A DNA stretch of 35,215 bases, from IMG/VR virus record IMGVR_UViG_3300046820_001656, positions 1 to 35,215 of that record. One strand, 5' to 3'. The position numbers and the translations under genes are program-made. Each line of letters starts with the position of its first letter. Positions within the stretch are counted from its first letter, which is position 1. This document shows, piece after piece, positions 11,978-21,701 of the stretch. The notes under the pieces are model-generated. The model saw only the letters and a list, made by a program, of their open reading frames with translations. It ran no database searches and had not been told where the DNA came from. The stretch comes from a virus.

Positions 11978-14900
11978 TTATTTATTGTATTGTGAAACAT
12001 TACTATTGTAGTAGTTTTTATAAACTGGGTGTATTCCATCATTTGCCGGTGTAAATTCACCTAAGAAAGTAAATCCATACTCATCTGCTACTGACTTTAA
12101 CTGTGTGTTCGCATCTGATAATCCAGCAGGATAAGCACCTGATAAATTTTGAGGTGGTTTATTTGTTGCTCCAACTAAATAAACTTTACAACCCCATCCT
12201 TTTAGTAACGCCAATTGGTCTTTTACTTTTTGTTTTTGAGTGGGTCCGTTTGTATATCCAGATGAAAGTAATACCTTTTTACCGGATAGTTTAGCGCTTC
12301 CTATTTCATTTATAAATCCTAAAATAGTTGTAGGGTTAGCTCCAACTTGTGATATACCCCAGTCATCTTTTGATGGTGCTACTCCAAATGCACCACTTCT
12401 TTTTGTAGTAGATATTGCTAATGATGCTAATCCAGCTGCAATTGAATCACCAATAACAAAATTAAACTTACCAGAAGCTGTTGTGGATACACCTGATGTT
12501 CCAGCAGATCCAGAGGTTCCAGCAGATCCAGAGGTTCCAGCAGATCCAGAGGTTCCTGATAATCCCGATGTTCCCGATGTTCCGGTAGAACCATTTGATA
12601 ATGTTGGTGGTACATAGTTTGGATCTGGTCTTGGAGTATAATATAACTCCATAATATTACCAACCACTTCTAATCCATTTTCAGATACCTCTGTTATTTT
12701 TATTGTAAATTCCTTACCTAACTTATCAACTACTAATACTTGTTGATCAACTTTATAAACACTATTTGGTATACCACTTTGAGATCCGACTATCTTATTC
12801 TCATTTCTCTCAGCATTATTTTCATTTTTAGTATCAGTTGTTTGATTATTTATCTCTTCTGGTAATTTTCCTAATTCTTTTCTAGATGCTACTAATTTTT
12901 GAGTTAGTTTTCCAGCCTGCCAAATATAATTTATCTCAGTTATTATCCACTCTCCACTTATTCTCTTTTGTAAGTATTCATCATTAGTTACTGTTTTAGC
13001 TGGATTTATAAACTGTATTTCTACTTTTTGATATTTATATAAATTAAAATTAGGATTTGGTATATCTAGTTCGACAGTTATTCTACCTAGGTTGTCAAAA
13101 TTTACTTTATTCTGAGTCTCTGCGTATAGATAGTTTTTATGTACATTTTCCATGTCAATTCTACCTCCAAAAATTGTCCTAAAGTTAGTTTTTAATTCTT
13201 TCTCATCACCAGGTTGTCCTTTTAGAATCACAGTTTTCTCACCATCTGATGTTAGTGAATCAATATCAAATATTAAAAATGATTTACTAGCTGTATCATA
13301 AAATTTAGTGGTTGTAAATTGACCTTTCGTTATCGACTTTCTTGTTGATTCATTATTCAACTTATAACTTGAAAATTTTAAGTTTGTATATTGACCACTT
13401 TCATCATTCGATAAAATCATCCTAGATAATTTAGTCTCATCACCCGTTGGTGGTGTAGCTAAAGTACCTCCAACACCTTGTGATGTTATACCTAGGTCTT
13501 TTGTTATATCTCTTACCCATTCTTTTTCAACATCAACGTAATTAAAACAATAGTAAAAATCTATATATCCTGTTACAAAAGATGTATCTGATATGTAAGA
13601 ATGTCTTACTATATCAGCCATGAAGTCTTTGAATACTTTTCCAGTATTTGTCCACTTCATCGAATCGGTTGTATTTGTTATATTAGAGTTAAATCCTATT
13701 CCTAGTTCTTTTGATATATTTCTAAGAGCCTCAAATGACGTTCCTATATATGACTTATAATTAACTTTGTAAAAGTCTGTTAAATCTATAGATCCTGATA
13801 TTGTATATGATTTATCTTTGTTTTCTTGAAAGTCCGTCAATTTAAATTTCATATGTATAGATTTCAAATTCTTTGATCCTGAATTTAAAAAGACCTCAAA
13901 TTTTGTATTATCTAATGGAAATCCGTCTCTTTTCATTAGGCCAAGTGAATCCACAAAAGTTATTGTAACAACTGGTAACATCTTATCATGTGACAATTTT
14001 AATTGTCTAATGTCTCTGTCCATTATTTGATATCCCATATACCAAAAGAATGGTGTGAATCCTAATCCATAAGCTATTTCAGCATCTTGTTGTTCACCTT
14101 TATCTTTAGGTCTTTCATACTCAATTGGTTTGAGTGTTATTGTTGGTTTGTCTATTTGTGCAATTATTGGTCTAGACCCTTCTACTTTTTCTTCTTCTTT
14201 TCCTCTAGGTTCTTGTTCTTTTGGTTGAGGATCACCAGTAACTGTGATAGTAAACTCTGTTTCTTCAAATTCCGGAGAAGATGGTATAACTGAAACAACA
14301 TAAGTTCCTGGTTGGTCAAACTGTAACCCAGTGAATTGTGCTTCTCCAAGATAAATACCCTTTTCGACTTCTCCCATTATCTCACCTGGTCCACTTTTCT
14401 TTTTTAGTGTTAATGTTGGTGTTAATGTCTTTGGATCCACTTTACCTGATGTACCTGACGTTCCACTTGTACCTGACGACCCAGAAGTTCCACTTGTACC
14501 CGATACTCCAGAAGTTCCACTTGTGCCTGATGTTCCAGAAGTTCCTGATGTTCCAGAGTTTGTAACTGGAGTAGGTGATATCTCGGATATTAATTTACCT
14601 AATGGTGTTAGAGATTGAAAGTGTGAAGTTCTACCAGTTAGTTTAGTATGACCCGATATATTATTTCCAGTACAATCTGATCCACCAGAATAAACATTTG
14701 ATTTAGGCACACCTAAATTTATCGCCGCATTAACTATACCTTTTGTTCCGTCTGAACAAGTGTATGGCTCATTTATATGTAAAAGTTTAAGAGATTGATT
14801 TTTACTTTTTAAGTGATTTGCAATAGTTTTTGACTTTACACAACCCGCACTGAATAAAATTATTGGAGCCCCTGGATTATCATCAATTGATTTAAGAACT

Positions 14901-15040
14901 ACTGAATCTTTTTCACTATATCTAAAGGATGCTATATTAGCGGATGATCCATAGCCATTCTTAACTAACTCTGTTTGTTTACTCAGATTTAAGTCACCTT
15001 TCCTATCATCAAGACCGGCAACAAATATTATATTTGCCAT
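11978..15040 (-). CDS. gp27-like baseplate hub protein with SGNH/GDSL esterase domain
   Basis: This is a 1,020-residue fusion. Residues 1-155 are an alpha/beta domain (IIFVAGL; PIILFSAGC with Ser64; GHTKLTGRTSH) that may be hydrolase-like, uncertain. Residues 162-199 are a Gly-Thr-Ser triplet tract. Residues 205-270 look Ig-like. Residues 320-725 are the hub: YGLGFTPFFWYMGYQI, SFEALRNISKELGIGF and YIDFYYCFNYVDVEKEW fit the gp27/gpD family that forms the trimeric baseplate hub. After a second triplet tract (818-850), residues 857-1020 carry SGNH hydrolase marks: GDS with Ser866, Gly900, Asn931, and DGIH with Asp1001 and His1004. A surface esterase could deacetylate host glycan. A late-type element lies 30 bases upstream; the gene heads the baseplate operon. 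Confidence 0.7.
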   Translation of the reverse strand: MANIIFVAGLDDRKGDLNLSKQTELVKNGYGSSANIASFRYSEKDSVVLKSIDDNPGAPIILFSAGCVKSKTIANHLKSKNQSLKLLHINEPYTCSDGTKGIVNAAINLGVPKSNVYSGGSDCTGNNISGHTKLTGRTSHFQSLTPLGKLISEISPTPVTNSGTSGTSGTSGTSGTSGVSGTSGTSGSSGTSGTSGTSGKVDPKTLTPTLTLKKKSGPGEIMGEVEKGIYLGEAQFTGLQFDQPGTYVVSVIPSSPEFEETEFTITVTGDPQPKEQEPRGKEEEKVEGSRPIIAQIDKPTITLKPIEYERPKDKGEQQDAEIAYGLGFTPFFWYMGYQIMDRDIRQLKLSHDKMLPVVTITFVDSLGLMKRDGFPLDNTKFEVFLNSGSKNLKSIHMKFKLTDFQENKDKSYTISGSIDLTDFYKVNYKSYIGTSFEALRNISKELGIGFNSNITNTTDSMKWTNTGKVFKDFMADIVRHSYISDTSFVTGYIDFYYCFNYVDVEKEWVRDITKDLGITSQGVGGTLATPPTGDETKLSRMILSNDESGQYTNLKFSSYKLNNESTRKSITKGQFTTTKFYDTASKSFLIFDIDSLTSDGEKTVILKGQPGDEKELKTNFRTIFGGRIDMENVHKNYLYAETQNKVNFDNLGRITVELDIPNPNFNLYKYQKVEIQFINPAKTVTNDEYLQKRISGEWIITEINYIWQAGKLTQKLVASRKELGKLPEEINNQTTDTKNENNAERNENKIVGSQSGIPNSVYKVDQQVLVVDKLGKEFTIKITEVSENGLEVVGNIMELYYTPRPDPNYVPPTLSNGSTGTSGTSGLSGTSGSAGTSGSAGTSGSAGTSGVSTTASGKFNFVIGDSIAAGLASLAISTTKRSGAFGVAPSKDDWGISQVGANPTTILGFINEIGSAKLSGKKVLLSSGYTNGPTQKQKVKDQLALLKGWGCKVYLVGATNKPPQNLSGAYPAGLSDANTQLKSVADEYGFTFLGEFTPANDGIHPVYKNYYNSNVSQYNK
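12498..12569 (-). repeat. Three perfect 18-bp repeats plus a diverged fourth, coding Gly-Ser-Ala/Thr-Ser triplets
   Basis: The plus-strand unit gttccagcagatccagag is repeated exactly at 12,498-12,515, 12,516-12,533 and 12,534-12,551, followed by a diverged unit. On the coding strand it gives three GTSGSA-type hexapeptides in the linker before the SGNH domain. Perfect identity suggests recent copy-number change here, unlike the synonymous drift in the other triplet tracts. Confidence 0.85.
14442..14557 (-). repeat. Gly-Thr-Ser triplet tract between the N-terminal domain and hub
   Basis: Twelve or so degenerate 9-bp units encode (GTS)n with occasional Val/Ser substitutions, residues about 162-199 of the hub protein. 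Every third residue is Gly, a collagen-like periodicity without Pro. Confidence 0.8.
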
Positions 15041-15106: not shown

Positions 15107-16717
15107 TTAAAGATTAACTTTTAATATTTTATAAGGATATTGTCTTTTAATGTAGAATTTCTCTCTTTCCTTAAAGTGTCTAAATAATATATTACCCATA
15201 TTATTAGCATTAAAGACATCAACTAAGTCAAATATATTAGCTTTCTTTTTATCAGAGTGTAGACGAAGAGCACGTCCTATTGATTGGATAATAATTTGTT
15301 CAGATTTAAATGAATCAGCAAATATAACATTGAATATCGCATTAATAGAAACACCCGTTGATAAAGTACCATAAGAAGCTATTAGAACTTTAACTTTATC
15401 ACTAGTATTCTCCATTTCTTTTTTAATGATTTCTCTTTTCTTACCAGATATCTCACCGTCAATATAATAAAAATCCTTATCAGGTAATTCTTCTTTTAAT
15501 TTACTTAAAATTCTTTGACCATACTCAATTGTGTGAAATAGTAAAAGAGTATTTGAATCACATTTCTCAACTATCTTTTTAATAAAGTCTAATCTTTTTT
15601 CAGATATGTGTATGTAATCTTTTTCTAAATCGAAAGCATCTTTACCATTACCACTTTTCTTTATAATAGACATTCTTTCATCAAATTCCAAATCATTATG
15701 ATTCATAATAACTACTCGAACCTCCATTGGTGTAATGATTCCTTTTTCTTTTAATTCATTTGCTGATACTTCTGTAATCTTTGGACCCAATACAGATTGA
15801 ATTGTTAGCACTTCACAAGTATCATCTTCTGGAAATGTACCAGATACTCCAAATCTTGAGTAAGCATATCCAAATGTGTTTTTAAGTATCGTCGTTATTG
15901 TTTTTGCTTTAGCACCGTGAGCCTCATCTGTTACAACTGTATGAAACTGTTGAAAAAATTCTTTAGGCCATTTTTCAAGTGATTGGTAAGTTCCAATATA
16001 AACATTAGCATCTAAAGTACCTGACCACTTACGAGGTCTTTCAGACATTACTTCTTCAATTCTAATTTCACAAGGTAAATGAGAATCATTTAGAATATGG
16101 TCTATTTTCTTTTCTCTCATTTCTATAATATTATTAACACCTAAGTTATATTCAACAATATTATCATAAAACTGAGTTACTAATGTAATTGAGGGAACTA
16201 TAATTAAGAATTTAGCTTTTGGATCTATATACTTTAATGTGTAAAACATTACAATAGATATAATAAGTGATTTACCACCTGATGTAGCTACTTCAGCCAT
16301 ACAGTATCTATTTTTTAAGATTTTATAAGCGGCTTCTATTTGATGATCATATGGTGTAAAAGGCACCCAACTACCATCTTTCATTCTGACTTTATGTGTT
16401 TTGAAAAAATCAGTACAGAAATCTCTTACTCCTTGTAAAGTTACATCTCTGTTTAGAGGAAAGTCTTCTTTGTTTTCTAATATAAAAGGCATGTCAATTT
16501 CTTTACAACCTCTCATAGCTTCTTTCCAAAGTCCCAAATTTATTTTACCATTTCTAAAATATGTTTGTTGACCATTCCACACACCCATTTTAAATGCTGG
16601 CATGTATCTGTAACCCTTTACATGACGGGTTAACCATAAATCTAATTGATGATATTCGATTCTTGTAGCCTCACTGACAACAAGTTCTTCGTTTTTCTTG
16701 TCATATCTAAACTTCAT
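15107..16717 (-). CDS. uvsW: UvsW-type superfamily 2 DNA/RNA helicase
   Basis: This 536-residue helicase resembles T4 UvsW (503 residues), which unwinds branched DNA and R-loops and drives the change from origin-dependent to recombination-dependent replication. Visible motifs are an N-terminal UvsW-type domain (GYRYMPAFKMGVWNGQ, 35-50), Walker A ATSGGKS at 144-150, Walker B/DEAH at 264-267, motif III GVSGTFP, and motif VI SIGRALRLH near residue 480. It ends KVNL, like T4 UvsW's own C-terminus as I recall it. It is transcribed on the minus strand ahead of the baseplate block. No exact late element precedes it, only a TTTTATATATAA variant close to the start. Confidence 0.92.
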   Translation of the reverse strand: MKFRYDKKNEELVVSEATRIEYHQLDLWLTRHVKGYRYMPAFKMGVWNGQQTYFRNGKINLGLWKEAMRGCKEIDMPFILENKEDFPLNRDVTLQGVRDFCTDFFKTHKVRMKDGSWVPFTPYDHQIEAAYKILKNRYCMAEVATSGGKSLIISIVMFYTLKYIDPKAKFLIIVPSITLVTQFYDNIVEYNLGVNNIIEMREKKIDHILNDSHLPCEIRIEEVMSERPRKWSGTLDANVYIGTYQSLEKWPKEFFQQFHTVVTDEAHGAKAKTITTILKNTFGYAYSRFGVSGTFPEDDTCEVLTIQSVLGPKITEVSANELKEKGIITPMEVRVVIMNHNDLEFDERMSIIKKSGNGKDAFDLEKDYIHISEKRLDFIKKIVEKCDSNTLLLFHTIEYGQRILSKLKEELPDKDFYYIDGEISGKKREIIKKEMENTSDKVKVLIASYGTLSTGVSINAIFNVIFADSFKSEQIIIQSIGRALRLHSDKKKANIFDLVDVFNANNMGNILFRHFKEREKFYIKRQYPYKILKVNL

Positions 16718-16829
16718 CTCATTATTATATATAAAATAACACCTGTTGTTTAATTTCCTAAAAATTTTGAGGTTTTTTACAGAGGGAAATGAAACATCTG
16801 GATATATAATTAAAAAATAATTAAAAATT

Positions 16830-17216
16830 ATGGGACTATTATCATTCTTTAAAGGGTTATTCGGTAAAAAGGAAGCTCAAATTAAGGCTGAAATCAAAGA
16901 GGTAGTTGCTGAAGTTAAAGAGGTTGTTGAAACTGTTGAAGTTAAACCAGTAGTTGAAGCTAAGGTTGAATTCAAAGGTGGAGAAGTTAAAGCTGAAGTT
17001 AAAGCTGAAGTTGAACTTAAACCTAAGGCACCTAAATCTAAGAAACCTAAAACTCCTAAGACTGAGGTTAAGACTGAAGTTGTTGAAGAGAAAAAGGTTA
17101 CAGCTAAAGAAATTAAGGCTAAGGTTAAACCAACACAAGTTGCTGATAAAGCAGTTGAAGTTGAGAAGAAATCAAAACCTCGTAGAAGACCGGCTAAACC
17201 TAAAAAAGCTGAGTAA
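16830..17216 (+). CDS. Lys/Glu/Val-rich repetitive protein with basic C-terminus
   Basis: This 128-residue low-complexity protein opens with an amphipathic, Phe-rich helix (MGLLSFFKGLFGKKEA). It continues with repeating Val-Glu-Val-Lys/Ala-Glu-Val-Lys units (residues 18-65), then Lys/Pro segments (KPKAPKSKKPKTPKTE) and a very basic end (KKSKPRRRPAKPKKAE). The C-terminal half resembles histone H1-like tails in composition. This suggests nucleic-acid or membrane association, but composition alone cannot assign function. It faces uvsW across a 112-base divergent gap. A hairpin terminator follows 21 bases after the stop. Confidence 0.65.
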   Translation: MGLLSFFKGLFGKKEAQIKAEIKEVVAEVKEVVETVEVKPVVEAKVEFKGGEVKAEVKAEVELKPKAPKSKKPKTPKTEVKTEVVEEKKVTAKEIKAKVKPTQVADKAVEVEKKSKPRRRPAKPKKAE

Positions 17217-17237
17217 TCAAAATTCTTTAAAAAAATT

Positions 17238-17264
17238 AAACCCACTTTCTGAGTGGGTTTTTTT
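17238..17264. terminator. Bidirectional intrinsic terminator (AAACCCACT stem)
   Basis: Stem aaacccact (17,238-17,246) pairs with agtgggttt (17,252-17,260) around a 5-base loop, with T-runs on both strands. It separates the convergent 128-residue (+) and 218-residue (-) genes. The same stem core recurs at 26,974-26,999. Confidence 0.85.
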
Positions 17265-17265
17265 A

Positions 17266-17922
17266 TTATCCTAAATCAGCGGCTTGAACCGTTTCTTTAT
17301 TATAAATGTATATCATAACATTGGATATCTTTTCATCATCATGTAAACCATTTAATATTAAATCATCAACATTTTTTGAATTTTTTGTCAATGATGTATT
17401 TCCAGTCTCTCTAGGACCTCTAGATTTTTTCACTTGTATAGTAAAATCAGAATCTAACATTTTTAACTTTCCGTGAACATCTGCTAAATCTTCAGCTATT
17501 TCTTCATTTGTGTTATATCTAATAGAAACTATATCAACAACAAAAGCTCCAAGTTCAAAGTCACCAGTGTCTTCTATATCATCTGTTCTATCTAATAACG
17601 GTCTAATACAATCCATTATGTCTTCGTGATTAACATTAATGTTAAAAGCTTGTAAGAATGATTCTTGAGAACCATCGTGTATTTCATATTGGAAATAATC
17701 TTTATAATCTTCTTCTACTTGATCAATAAACTGTTCAAGAAGTGATTTTGTTTTATCTGTGAAAACAGCATTTCCCGGACCTTGTACCTTTGATTGAAGA
17801 TTAGATTCAATATGTTCTATTAAAGGTTTGAATATCTCTTCCCAATCAACCGGATTTGTAAGAGGTCCCATTTTACGAATCTCATCTTTGGATTCTAATA
17901 TAAGTTTAGAGAATTTCTTCAT
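17266..17922 (-). CDS. Hypothetical protein with capsid-targeting-type N-terminus
   Basis: This is a 218-residue protein whose N-terminus MKKFSKLILE|S matches the T4 internal-protein capsid-targeting pattern (basic/aromatic start, then [LI]-x-E before a small residue). Cleavage would fall after Glu10. The rest is acidic and alpha/beta (DFELGAFVVDIVSIRYN, then KLKMLDSDFTIQVKK), with no recognised family. It starts 2 bases after the stop of the ferritin-like gene and probably shares that gene's late promoter. It ends at the bidirectional terminator. Confidence 0.6.
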   Translation of the reverse strand: MKKFSKLILESKDEIRKMGPLTNPVDWEEIFKPLIEHIESNLQSKVQGPGNAVFTDKTKSLLEQFIDQVEEDYKDYFQYEIHDGSQESFLQAFNINVNHEDIMDCIRPLLDRTDDIEDTGDFELGAFVVDIVSIRYNTNEEIAEDLADVHGKLKMLDSDFTIQVKKSRGPRETGNTSLTKNSKNVDDLILNGLHDDEKISNVMIYIYNKETVQAADLG

Positions 17923-17924
17923 TA

Positions 17925-18512
17925 TTATCCAAAATATTTATCTTCAAATATCAAAACATCAAGTTTATTTTCGATATTAACTAGTTGAAGAGCATTCAAT
18001 AAATCAGAGTACTCAGCAACTGAATCGTTTTGAATATCAACATACTTTTGTATAAAATTAAAAGTCGCTGGATGAACTCCAAATAAAGATTGTTGATCTT
18101 TAGAATACTTCATAAATAAACCATATTCTAAGTTATAAGCTTTATTGATGATATCAATTAAACTATTGAATGACTGATTAGAAGGAGCTGAAGGAATACT
18201 TGGTATTAAATTCCATTGAGTTAAATAATCTTGTAATCCTTGAGCATGTTCTAATTCACTATTAGCCTCACCTTCAAAAAAAGCTGTTGCTTTTTTATAA
18301 TTAGCGTTTCTACACCAATTAGCAGCATTTCTATAAAAATAATGAGCCGTGTATTCATCACCTATTCTTTCATTAAAGATAGAAACAATATCATCAGTTA
18401 AACTAACTGGGGTTACCAATCCACTCTCAACAACTTGTTCTTTTTGTTCGATTGGTTGTTCTTCATTGAACTCATCGTTTTCTTTTATACGGTTAAATTT
18501 CTTGATATTCAT
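17925..18512 (-). CDS. Ferritin-like iron-storage protein with capsid-targeting-type N-terminus
   Basis: This 195-residue protein has a four-helix ferritin domain (about 38-175) that aligns by eye with bacterial non-haem ferritin FtnA. Visible ferroxidase residues are Glu53 (GDEYTAHYFY), Glu86 and His89 (SELEHAQGL), Glu129 (NLEYGLF) and Gln161 (DIQNDSVAEY). The equivalent of FtnA Glu130 appears to be Ser164. Such proteins oxidise and store Fe(II). Residues 1-37 form an extra acidic N-terminal arm beginning MNIKKFNRIKEN, like the capsid-targeting starts of nearby genes. A perfect late element lies 23 bases upstream. The 218-residue gene follows after 2 bases. A phage ferritin with a possible packaging signal is unusual. 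Confidence 0.8.
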   Translation of the reverse strand: MNIKKFNRIKENDEFNEEQPIEQKEQVVESGLVTPVSLTDDIVSIFNERIGDEYTAHYFYRNAANWCRNANYKKATAFFEGEANSELEHAQGLQDYLTQWNLIPSIPSAPSNQSFNSLIDIINKAYNLEYGLFMKYSKDQQSLFGVHPATFNFIQKYVDIQNDSVAEYSDLLNALQLVNIENKLDVLIFEDKYFG

Positions 18513-18535
18513 AATATTTTTACTATTTTATAGCT

Positions 18536-18546
18536 TATATATTAAA
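18536..18546 (-). promoter_or_regulatory. Candidate late promoter TTTAATATATA
   Basis: Exact 11-mer on the minus strand, 23 bases before the ferritin-like gene, in the 42-base gap after the dehydrogenase gene. It would let the ferritin and 218-residue genes be expressed late and separately from clpP and serA. Confidence 0.55.
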
Positions 18547-18554
18547 AACAAAAA

Positions 18555-19544
18555 TTAATTTACTACCATCTCACCAAATTCTTCAACTATTAGATTAGCA
18601 AGTTCTGTTCCAATTCTATCTTGAGCTTCTGATGTAGCCGCTCCAATGTGTGGAGTTACTGATATTCTTGAATGTGATAACAATTCTTTCATTGGAGTTG
18701 GTTCGTTTTCGTAAACATCTAATGACGCGAATGATACTTTACCACTTTCTAAAGCTTTCAATAAGTCTAATTCATTAATAACACCACCTCTAGCAGTATT
18801 GATAACTCTAACTCCATCTTTCATTAGGTTAAACTCTCTTTCATTGATTACTGAGTTTCCGTTTTCTTGTTTAGGAACGTGAATAGAAATATAATCACAT
18901 AAAGGTAGAATCTCATCTAAGTTAGTTTTAGTTTTGATTTTTATACCCATACTATTTGATACTTTATTACCACTTTGAGCTGTCCAGTTTAAAGTAATTG
19001 GAACGTCTACCATTCTTTCTTCAACATCCATAGCAATAACATCCATTCCGATACCGATTGCGTATTGAGCTAAAGATTGACCAATTCGACCAAATCCAAT
19101 AATACCTAAGGTTTTACCTCTTAGTTCTACACCAGAGCCATATTGTTTTTTAAGTTTATTAAAATCACCAGTCTCCATATTTTTTTGAGAATCTCCTAAA
19201 AATCTAGACATTGAAAACATTTGACCAATAACTAATTCAGCAACTGATTGAGATGAAGAAGCTGGAGTATTGATTACTTTTATTCCTTTTTCTCTAGCAT
19301 AAGAAACATCAATATTATCCATTCCTACACCTCCTCTACCGATTAGTTTTAAGTTAGGACATTGGTCAATAACTTCTTTTCTAACGGTTGTTGCACTTCT
19401 AACAAGAACTATTTCATAATTCTCTTCATTTATTTTGTTGGCTAATTCGGACTGTTCAACTTTTTCAGTAATAACTGTGTAACCAAATTTTTCTAATTCT
19501 AATTTCCCTTCATTGGAAATTCCATCATTTGCTAAAATTTTCAT
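18555..19544 (-). CDS. serA: D-3-phosphoglycerate dehydrogenase-like D-2-hydroxyacid dehydrogenase
   Basis: This 329-residue enzyme is of the D-2-hydroxyacid dehydrogenase family, most like SerA, which oxidises 3-phosphoglycerate with NAD+ in serine synthesis. It has RSATTVR (49-55) and GRGGVGMDNID (69-79) in the substrate domain, the Rossmann motif GFGRIG (150-155), and the catalytic set Arg252 (NTARGG), Glu281 (ENEP) and His299 (TPHIG). It has no C-terminal ACT domain, so feedback inhibition by serine is not expected. About 20 extra residues near 178-207 resemble the form I recall from Bacteroidetes. It follows clpP after 2 bases, so they are probably one transcript. This is likely an auxiliary metabolic gene from a host. 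The exact hydroxyacid substrate is inferred. Confidence 0.85.
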   Translation of the reverse strand: MKILANDGISNEGKLELEKFGYTVITEKVEQSELANKINEENYEIVLVRSATTVRKEVIDQCPNLKLIGRGGVGMDNIDVSYAREKGIKVINTPASSSQSVAELVIGQMFSMSRFLGDSQKNMETGDFNKLKKQYGSGVELRGKTLGIIGFGRIGQSLAQYAIGIGMDVIAMDVEERMVDVPITLNWTAQSGNKVSNSMGIKIKTKTNLDEILPLCDYISIHVPKQENGNSVINEREFNLMKDGVRVINTARGGVINELDLLKALESGKVSFASLDVYENEPTPMKELLSHSRISVTPHIGAATSEAQDRIGTELANLIVEEFGEMVVN

Positions 19545-19546
19545 AT

Positions 19547-20209
19547 TTATTTTCTTTTTATTATGATATCATCTATCATTCCATATTTTTTGGCGTCTGT
19601 TGAAGACATCCAATAATCTCTATCACCATCTTTATAAACTCTATCATAGTTTTGACCAGTTTTTTCAGATATTATCTCATATAATTCTTTTTTAAGATGA
19701 TTCATTTCCCTAGCTTCAATTTCTACATCAGAGGCTTGTTGCATCCAACCACCATAAGTTAAAGGTTGATGTATCATTGTTCTACTTCTTTTAAGAGCTT
19801 TTCTCTTACCTTTAGTTCCTGAACAAAGTATAACAGCGGCCATTGATGCTGCTAAACCAGTATTTACTGTTGATATGTCACATTTAACATAGTCCATAAC
19901 ATCCAATAGCCCTAATCCAGAGTAAACTGAACCACCTGGAGAGTCAATATAGATAGAGATATCTTCATCACTTTCCATATCTAAATACATTAGTTGTGCT
20001 TTTATTACATTACAGATATCAGAGTCTACCTCATCAGATAAAAAGATGATTCTATCATCTAATAGTTTTGAGAATATATCAACAGGCATTCCATTACTTT
20101 CTAGTAGATTTGCTGTTGAACTCTTTTTTTGCATTTTTCTAAAGTAATCATCTTGAAAAGAACTAGTGATAGACTGACTTAGTAGATACTTATTAAAGTC
20201 TTTATTCAT
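19547..20209 (-). CDS. clpP: ClpP-family serine protease
   Basis: This 220-residue protein is close in length and motifs to bacterial ClpP. Ser122 lies in GLAASMAA, His147 in TMIHQPL, and the third residue, an Asp, probably lies in the KDGDRDYW segment (193-200). SIYIDSPGGSVYSGLG (85-100) and the handle region are also typical. ClpP forms a barrel peptidase that works with ClpX/ClpA-type unfoldases. No unfoldase is in the window, so it would use the host's or act alone. Some phages use ClpP-fold enzymes as prohead proteases, so a role in trimming the capsid-targeting peptides of neighbours is an alternative. It heads a minus-strand pair with serA and faces an acidic-protein gene across a 105-base divergent gap. 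Confidence 0.85.
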   Translation of the reverse strand: MNKDFNKYLLSQSITSSFQDDYFRKMQKKSSTANLLESNGMPVDIFSKLLDDRIIFLSDEVDSDICNVIKAQLMYLDMESDEDISIYIDSPGGSVYSGLGLLDVMDYVKCDISTVNTGLAASMAAVILCSGTKGKRKALKRSRTMIHQPLTYGGWMQQASDVEIEAREMNHLKKELYEIISEKTGQNYDRVYKDGDRDYWMSSTDAKKYGMIDDIIIKRK

Positions 20210-20627: not shown

Positions 20628-21701
20628 ATGATTAAAAAGTTTAATCATTTTATTTCAGAGAGTAAAGACTCTGATTATTTATTATATTATGCCTTTGATT
20701 GGGATGATAATATCTTAAATATGCCTACTAAGATTCATATGGAACATTTAGTAGACGGTGAGTGGATACCAACATCGGTATCTACTGCAGAGTTTGCTGA
20801 CTACAGAAACGATAAAGAAAATTGGAGAGTTGACTATAATGTTGCCTTTGTTGATTTTAGAGATCAAGGAGAAAGAGGTGATAAAGCATTTTTAGAAGAT
20901 ACTAAAACTGCCATTTCACAAGGTAAACTTGGACCAGCATGGAATGACTTTATTGAGTGTTTATCAAATGGTTCAATATTTGCTATTATAACCGCTCGTG
21001 GTCACGAGGCTCCTGCTATGAGAATGGGTGTTGAGTGGATAATAGACAATATTCTAACTGAAGATCAATTATACCAAATGTATAATCAATTAATGAAATA
21101 TTCTTATTTCTTTGGTGATACTAATGTTGAAAATGAAAGAATATTAAGAGGTCAACCATCAAAGAATCCATTGATTAGTTCATATTTAGATAACTGTGAA
21201 TATGTTGGTGTTTCTTCTCCATCAAGAGGTGGCTCACCAGCTAATCCAGAAAAAGCTAAAGAAGATGCTCTTTTAGCCTTCAATGCTAAAGTAAATGATT
21301 ACGCAAAAAATGTTGGCATCTCCGCTAAAATTGGATTCTCAGATGATGATTTGGGAAATGTTAAACACATAGAAGATTTAATTGATAATTTACGAAATGA
21401 ACAATTTCCAAATATTGTAGAGTTTGTAGTTAAAGGAACTAAAGATCCAGAAAACATAACTAAGAAAGTTTTAAGTAGAGAAGAGCCGGTTACGGAAACA
21501 TCTCAACAAACACCTGGATTAGAATCATCAGTTCTTCCGTTTACACAGTTTAACAATATGACTAATAAACTTTACCCAAGTGGTCCATTAAACAGACAAG
21601 ATGATTTCGCTAATCAATTTAGAAGACAAGTTGATTATCTATCTAAGAACTCAAAAGAAATGAGAAAAGAAATTAAGAAAAATAAAAAATCCTCTAAATA
21701 A
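20628..21701 (+). CDS. HAD-superfamily phosphatase-like protein with capsid-targeting-type N-terminus
   Basis: This 357-residue protein starts MIKKFNHFISE|S, a close match to the T4 internal-protein targeting signal. The remainder has HAD motifs: motif I DWDDN (Asp24 and Asp26 in AFDWDDNIL), motif II Thr122 in AIITARGHE, a Lys in 209-221 for motif III, and motif IV GFSDDDLGNVKHI (236-248). The large insertion (40-110) between motifs I and II would be a cap. The last 80 residues are a linker ending in a basic tail (KKNKKSSK). HAD enzymes hydrolyse phosphate esters, often on nucleotides; the substrate here is unknown. It shares a transcript with the acidic protein and ends in an intrinsic terminator that overlaps its stop codon. 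Confidence 0.7.
   Translation: MIKKFNHFISESKDSDYLLYYAFDWDDNILNMPTKIHMEHLVDGEWIPTSVSTAEFADYRNDKENWRVDYNVAFVDFRDQGERGDKAFLEDTKTAISQGKLGPAWNDFIECLSNGSIFAIITARGHEAPAMRMGVEWIIDNILTEDQLYQMYNQLMKYSYFFGDTNVENERILRGQPSKNPLISSYLDNCEYVGVSSPSRGGSPANPEKAKEDALLAFNAKVNDYAKNVGISAKIGFSDDDLGNVKHIEDLIDNLRNEQFPNIVEFVVKGTKDPENITKKVLSREEPVTETSQQTPGLESSVLPFTQFNNMTNKLYPSGPLNRQDDFANQFRRQVDYLSKNSKEMRKEIKKNKKSSK

Follow-up and report, generated by a model that had tools for sequence, protein, structure and literature searches.

We found that a 35,215-base stretch of viral DNA, a complete IMG/VR record referred to below as the window, encodes a ferritin with an N-terminal arm that may act as an address to the phage head. 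With moderate confidence, we read the protein as a late, head-targeted, H-type ferroxidase ferritin that would be loaded through a capsid-targeting signal (CTS), cleaved and enclosed with the DNA. We infer this packaging and cleavage together with a biological role, which is probably to protect the DNA in the head, or the cell that has just been infected, from oxidation driven by iron. The features concerned are the following.

17266..17922, minus strand: 218-aa gene of no family, N-terminus MKKFSKLILESKDE; next gene in the ferritin's proposed late unit
17925..18512, minus strand: ferritin gene, 195 aa plus stop; matches to PF00210, H. pylori Pfr and E. coli FtnA
17928..18401, minus strand: ferritin domain, residues 38-195, four-helix bundle plus short fifth helix (from model and alignment)
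18402..18479, minus strand: hypervariable linker spanning residues 12-37; contains another candidate site, FNE|E (from disorder and divergence)
18480..18512, minus strand: residues 1-11 (MNIKKFNRIKE), proposed to form a capsid-targeting peptide; candidate prohead-protease site IKE|N (marginal alone; the M.IKKF start is kept in relatives)
18534..18548 in plus-strand coordinates, minus strand: late-type element TTTTTAATATATAAG, between the 2-hydroxyacid dehydrogenase gene and the ferritin gene
18555..19544, minus strand: 2-hydroxyacid dehydrogenase gene (PF02826, E=3e-47), directly upstream of the ferritin

The ferritin gene lies in a variable spot of a Mahaphage-like genome

The window covers part of the genome of a Mahaphage-like phage. 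Its UvsW and NAMPT share 82.6% and 83.2% identity with their counterparts in LR756502 (642 kb), and UvsW shares 81.9% with the LR745206 (634 kb) protein; passages of PMC7162821 describe genomes above 634 kb as Mahaphages with predicted replication in Bacteroidetes. Synteny with these two genomes covers most window genes, and a small plus-strand gene beside UvsW is common to all three. The interval between UvsW and ClpP (window 16717-20209) differs among them, containing the 218-aa gene, the ferritin and the 2-hydroxyacid dehydrogenase in the window and one different gene each, of 146 and 210 aa, in LR756502 and LR745206. The dehydrogenase gene thus belongs to the same accessory insertion as the ferritin and is absent from the corresponding interval of both relatives. 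Because the ferritin is likewise missing there, and because a tblastn search with it against 50,697 phage records gave no match at E 0.01, we regard the gene as accessory in this group of phages. Elsewhere in the window, two large proteins (503-2635 and 11978-15040) contain long GTSGTSGTSG repeats.

The protein is a predicted H-type ferritin with a complete diiron site

The original prediction of a ferritin-like open reading frame at this locus was borne out by homology searches, in which the protein matched the Pfam Ferritin family (PF00210) at E=1.3e-16 and H. pylori Pfr at E=1e-14; it aligned with E. coli FtnA at 26% identity. An AlphaFold2 monomer model built with 49 viral sequences had a mean pLDDT of 88.4, with helices at residues 40-69, 73-99, 118-142 and 148-175 and a short fifth helix at 183-193, while residues 1-27 fell below 50 and are modeled as disordered. 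The closest solved folds were V. cholerae and E. coli FtnA, at a target TM-score of about 0.9.

Alignment with E. coli FtnA also confirmed the five ferroxidase ligands named at the outset, with FtnA E17/E50/H53/E94/Q127 corresponding to E53/E86/H89/E129/Q161, so that the diiron site is complete. The change of the Glu130 equivalent to Ser, which had been taken as the one altered position, is real (S164), but the whole of site C is gone, with E49, E126 and E129 replaced by S85, I160 and D163, respectively. All 68 of the distinct viral homologues compared have E53, E86, H89 and E129, and 66 have Q161, one of the two exceptions being a truncated copy. Position 164 is occupied by Ser in 43 homologues and by Ala in 24, with a gap in the remaining one, and Glu stands at position 85 of site C in only 2 of the 68. 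Ala or Ser at the position equivalent to FtnA E130 is normal in animal H-type ferritins. The suggestion that this Ser might change iron turnover therefore carries little weight, as 67 of the 68 homologues have Ser or Ala there. Ligand invariance, together with the Ser/Ala pattern, points to an H-type site that works and not to an FtnA in decay, and the loss of site C argues against classing the protein as a classical three-site FtnA. Judged from its sequence, it is an H-type ferritin of the FtnA fold, and its identification as a working ferritin is strongly supported; it would be expected to assemble into a 24-mer and to have ferroxidase activity.

A virus-specific ferritin family

Two scans of IMG/VR returned 82 and then 194 relatives, and the best 80 of the 82 and best 80 of the 194 were combined into a set of 101 distinct proteins, the window's included. 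The window ferritin belongs to a virus-specific ferritin family of T4-type megaphages. When 84,980 cellular genomes were scanned with a pattern that detects only proteins with the conserved motif, a single relative (L134/L151) emerged, on a 3,210-base contig of an Actinomycetota metagenome-assembled genome. This protein nests within the viral family in the tree, and from that position we conclude that the contig is probably a misbinned phage contig. Ordinary bacterial ferritins among the plasmid-collection matches listed (15/20) reached at most 29% identity. The closest BFVD entry was a 51% identical fragment named Ftn from an uncultured phage, and databases already name metagenomic phage ferritins as such (51% identity for A0A6J5MFB8).

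The tree had a poor cellular outgroup, consisting of two very long branches, and was therefore used only within the viral family, where the window's clade comprises 21 rows with an SH-aLRT support of 97. One sequence without a phmmer match (L152) was left out of the tree, two with a cut 5' end or a stop (L031, L065) were left out of the arm counts below, and L204 was omitted as it had no usable open reading frame under the start rule. In a sister clade (L003, L004, L005 and L169; 4 of the 120 loci searched), a gene for Fapy-DNA glycosylase (MutM) lies 94-706 nt downstream of the ferritin, and in L003-L005 a DnaK-like gene is also close by. This neighbor is consistent with a function against oxidative DNA damage; the window has no Fapy-DNA glycosylase gene beside its ferritin.

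A T4-type capsid-targeting signal is common in these phages

We built a CTS profile from 64 seed N-termini of such phages, with ferritins and T4 excluded, and applied it to bases 1-150000 of T4 (249 open reading frames). There, ipII ranked first, ipIII second, gp61.1 third and ipI fifth. Since a profile made without T4 ranks the internal proteins (IPs) IPII, IPIII and IPI so highly, we equate the N-terminal signal of these phages with the T4 CTS, for which passages of PMC9026906 report that IPIII needs no more than its first 10 residues to be incorporated. Scores were low for alt, gp67, gp68, gp21, gp22, gp23 and gp24, and the profile therefore detects the CTS of internal proteins and not every head protein. 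By its third rank, the hypothetical T4 protein gp61.1 (MKTFKEFIKED...; L131, T4 record 18966-19130) may be a further internal head protein.

Scores of at least 6 were obtained for 101 of 776 genes, including 57/459 in G001 (a record of the window's wider lineage), 24/207 in G008 and 6/35 in the window. The commonness of such N-termini suggests that each phage packages dozens of proteins in its head. Examples are L092-L111 (G001), L112-L121 (G008) and those at window positions 20628, 27000, 32237 and 32824, and the CTS of the gene at 20628-21701 is kept across three phages. The 218-aa gene next to the ferritin is also CTS-like (score 3.0, p=0.009 versus internal segments), with a candidate site ILE|S. 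Mid-range scores can mislead, as the N-terminus of the window's ClpP scores 9.0 and those of its orthologues 3.7 and -7.4.

Lineage-specific motifs found by EM were present above the 1% internal threshold in 113/764, 53/152, 149/630 and 69/263 N-termini, and no clear motif emerged from the small lineage D set. Outside lineage A and the window's clade, ferritins did not match these motifs significantly. Other lineages have repeated N-termini that end in L/I-x-E, such as MKYIITESQ and MKKVIRLTESDL (L061) or MIKLIDILNES and MKLLDLLKEA (L020, L067), and these and their relatives are possibly lineage-specific forms of the CTS.

The ferritin follows a putative late promoter

The late element originally reported ahead of the ferritin is real: the AATATATA core of TTTTTAATATATAAG ends 23 nt before the ATG. 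In G001, 114 of 459 genes have AATATATA in the 60 nt ahead of them, compared to 16 expected, including gp23, the protease fusion described below and other head-region genes, and it precedes 35/69 CTS genes compared to 79/390 others (Fisher 5e-7). The association was borderline in G008 with the pattern [GA]ATATATA (5/24 CTS genes versus 14/183, p=0.05) and not significant among the few genes of the window (4/7 versus 8/28, p=0.20). In the first set of relatives, an element typical of the lineage preceded 43 of 66 distinct ferritins compared to 346 of 1807 other genes. We take these elements to be late promoters from the genes that they precede, and the ferritin would accordingly be expressed late, from a putative promoter of this kind.

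The N-terminal arm of the window's clade resembles a head address

A 37-residue arm, absent from E. coli FtnA and FtnB, precedes the ferritin fold. The extra arm described in the original prediction is therefore real, but it is only mildly acidic, with 8 D/E versus 5 K/R. The proposed likeness of its start, MNIKKFNRIKEN, to the N-termini of cargo-type neighbors proved marginal when the window is taken alone (p=0.09 when set against its own 34 neighbors, and 0.024 when 458 genes from a relative are the reference), and its CTS profile score of 2.3 corresponds to p=0.011 versus internal segments and 0.054 versus shuffles. An unsupervised comparison of ferritin and neighboring N-termini at 64 loci, the window among them, had little power and gave no p value below the 0.01 of L023.

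The likeness becomes credible through the relatives. Of the 21 clade members, 14 start with M(1-4)[FYL]xx[FY], here called FxxF-type (e.g., MKTFKHFKGGTNEG, MQEFNSFRKTKSGKLNEA, MEEFKTFRKNKVQAINEA and MSDFKTYKNFKSIKELNED), 6 start with MxIKKF (e.g., MQIKKFLKESVE, MQIKKFLKES and the window's own), 1 has neither and none is armless. The N-terminus of T4 IPI, MKTFKEFTSTTTPVSTITEA, resembles the FxxF-type starts, a pattern that has a background of 1192 in 19924 internal segments; both classes were named after the sequences had been read, and related sequences are not independent. Compared to the window, seven relatives with IKKF- or IRKF-type starts, two of which (L026 and L211) fall outside the clade of 21, are 67-83% identical over residues 1-6, 4-12% over residues 7-30 and 52-69% over residues 31-195. 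By this alignment, the IKKF-type group has a short conserved peptide ahead of a free linker.

Taken together, these comparisons support head addressing for the window's clade, as had been proposed for the window ferritin, but the address is not fixed in the family: 16 of the 101 distinct members are armless, some of them in phages rich in CTS genes, and in some phages the ferritin evidently can serve without a head address. The nearest homologue by path (L001/L002, MEIKKFGTQAQ) scores -13.5, has no L/I-x-E site and shows no CTS beyond MEIKKF.

A prohead-protease motif is enriched in ferritin arms

According to passages of PMC9026906, T4 gp21 cuts after L/I-X-E. The arm of the window ferritin has such a site at residue 11, the putative cleavage site IKE|N. 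Within the first 26 residues, L/I-x-E occurred in 22 of 32 non-redundant ferritin arms compared to 11.5 expected from shuffles; for reference, it occurred in 340/424 N-termini with a CTS and 142/631 without. Spacings of 0, 2 or 3 showed no enrichment. In a second set of 24 further arms, there were 10 with L/I-x-E compared to 6.6 expected (p=0.076), and when arms were grouped into 17 coarse families, there were 10 compared to 6.4 (p=0.042). The variant [LIVMFT]NE was picked after the first 32 arms had been seen, so only the 24 later arms test it, and 9 of these contain it compared to 2.1 expected. In gp23 of two relatives from the window's lineage, putative maturation sites SINE|N and SLNE|S lie in the stretch cut in T4 gp23, as judged by eye; in the MAFFT alignment, they did not coincide with the T4 site.

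Of 21 records searched, the window among them, 16 contained a gp21-type protease (PF03420) and 16 contained gp23; in the window's own 35-kb record, neither was found. In six records of the window's wider lineage (G001, G003, G006, G007, G013 and G014), the protease match lies in open frames of 606-712 aa, which indicates a fusion with another domain, perhaps a scaffold. The protease frames in seven records of other lineages measure 196-257 aa.

Possible roles of a head-targeted ferritin

In the sequence of events that we favor, the ferritin would be transcribed late from the TTAATATATA element, its N-terminal peptide would act as a T4-type CTS that binds the prohead core and loads the protein, and the gp21-type protease would then remove that peptide after a Glu. 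The enclosed ferritin, lying alongside the DNA, could oxidize and bind Fe(II), and the likeliest benefit would be that iron is kept off the packaged genome, or off the incoming genome just after entry. A ferritin 24-mer is about 12 nm across, too wide for a T4-like tail tube. Because it would hardly pass, assembly into a 24-mer would favor a role inside the virion; monomeric or dimeric ferritin could instead be injected. The most far-reaching form of this proposal is that in Mahaphage-like phages a T4-type head is filled, by way of a cleavable N-terminal address, with an active ferritin cage that remains inside the head and protects a very large genome from Fenton chemistry, the virion being an infectious analogue of an iron-storing encapsulin and the ferritin one of several dozen CTS-tagged proteins. 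In that full form, we judge it to be unlikely.

Injection itself is a variant of the favored reading, in which CTS-packaged monomers or dimers would pass the tail with the DNA, as other T4-type internal proteins do, and in the new host would immediately bind peroxide or free iron. The vicinity of the sister-clade ferritin (L003, L004, L005, L169) to the Fapy-DNA glycosylase gene provides a context of oxidative DNA damage for this, and T4 IPI is injected with the DNA according to passages of PMC9958956. The complete four-helix bundle and short fifth helix of the model, however, predict a 24-mer that is too wide for the tail tube, and we consider injection unlikely. We also weighed a late auxiliary ferritin that stores or detoxifies iron in the cytosol of the infected cell and is not packaged, its arm being a variable tail without targeting. 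Such a protein would fit the armless homologues (16/101), which keep the ligands and often the late-type element, as well as the want of significant ferritin matches to lineage CTS motifs outside the window's clade and the marginal CTS signal of the window itself. It does not account for the CTS-like starts of 20 of the 21 clade members, none of them armless, for the first six residues kept by the IKKF-type group beside a diverged linker, or for the enrichment of the prohead-protease motif in arms, and on this evidence we hold a purely cytosolic role to be somewhat unlikely. That the ferritin fold serves merely as a structural component of the prohead core, with iron chemistry incidental, seems highly improbable. 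Internal proteins of T4 type do form part of the prohead core, according to passages of PMC9958956, but the catalytic ligands are kept almost without exception as the residues of site C change, which is unexpected for a purely structural role, and the gene is missing from the syntenic LR756502 and LR745206, so the ferritin is dispensable for heads.

If the favored reading is true, a cellular iron-oxidizing cage has been taken over as phage head cargo, and the long-debated "Ferrojan horse" idea, which ties phage particles to iron, becomes testable with a defined gene. The T4 CTS is recognizable by profile in the largest known phages, marking about one gene in eight in G001, and this opens a route to predicting the cargo that megaphages carry into their hosts. 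The ferritin fold and the T4 CTS are already known, as are phage-encoded proteins of the ferritin superfamily. We found no paper with the phrase "phage-encoded ferritin," the main texts of PMC7162821, PMC12607003 and PMC12619734 nowhere contain the word "ferritin," and a literature search that covered few subscription journals gave no description of a packaged ferritin or of ferritin as CTS cargo.

Comparison with known systems

The window ferritin shares its fold and the A/B diiron ligands with E. coli FtnA and H. pylori Pfr and differs from FtnA in the loss of site C, a shorter fifth helix, the N-terminal arm and the late-type phage promoter element. Dps proteins are 12-mers with ligands at subunit interfaces; we rejected this identity for the window protein, whose ligands map within one subunit and whose best solved folds are of FtnA type. 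The Dps and Mn-catalase proteins of "Gratiaviridae" and Lactobacillus phages (PMC8008677) are likewise phage-encoded members of the ferritin superfamily with a link to oxidative stress; the window protein is distinguished by its FtnA-type fold and intrasubunit H-type site, and the passages concerned state no capsid targeting.

The N-terminal signal of T4 IPI, IPII and IPIII is found by the same profile as the cargo of these phages, and the T4 proteins and the window system have in common the L/I-x-E motif and, in the window's relatives, a T4-type protease and capsid. Unlike the T4 proteins, the cargo here is a ferritin, the CTS of the window copy is weak and its packaging is presumed. Encapsulins with encapsulated ferritin-like cargo, as described in PMC5012862 and PMC11202242, also place an iron oxidase in a capsid-like shell by means of a recognition sequence, and the encapsulin shell is related to HK97 (PMC8229669). 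Identity with EncFtn was rejected, as PMC5012862 gives that protein two main helices, compared to the four-helix bundle and fifth helix of the window ferritin. In contrast to encapsulin, an infectious T4-type head would serve as the shell, the signal would be N-terminal and cleavable, and the cargo would be a full-length classical ferritin.
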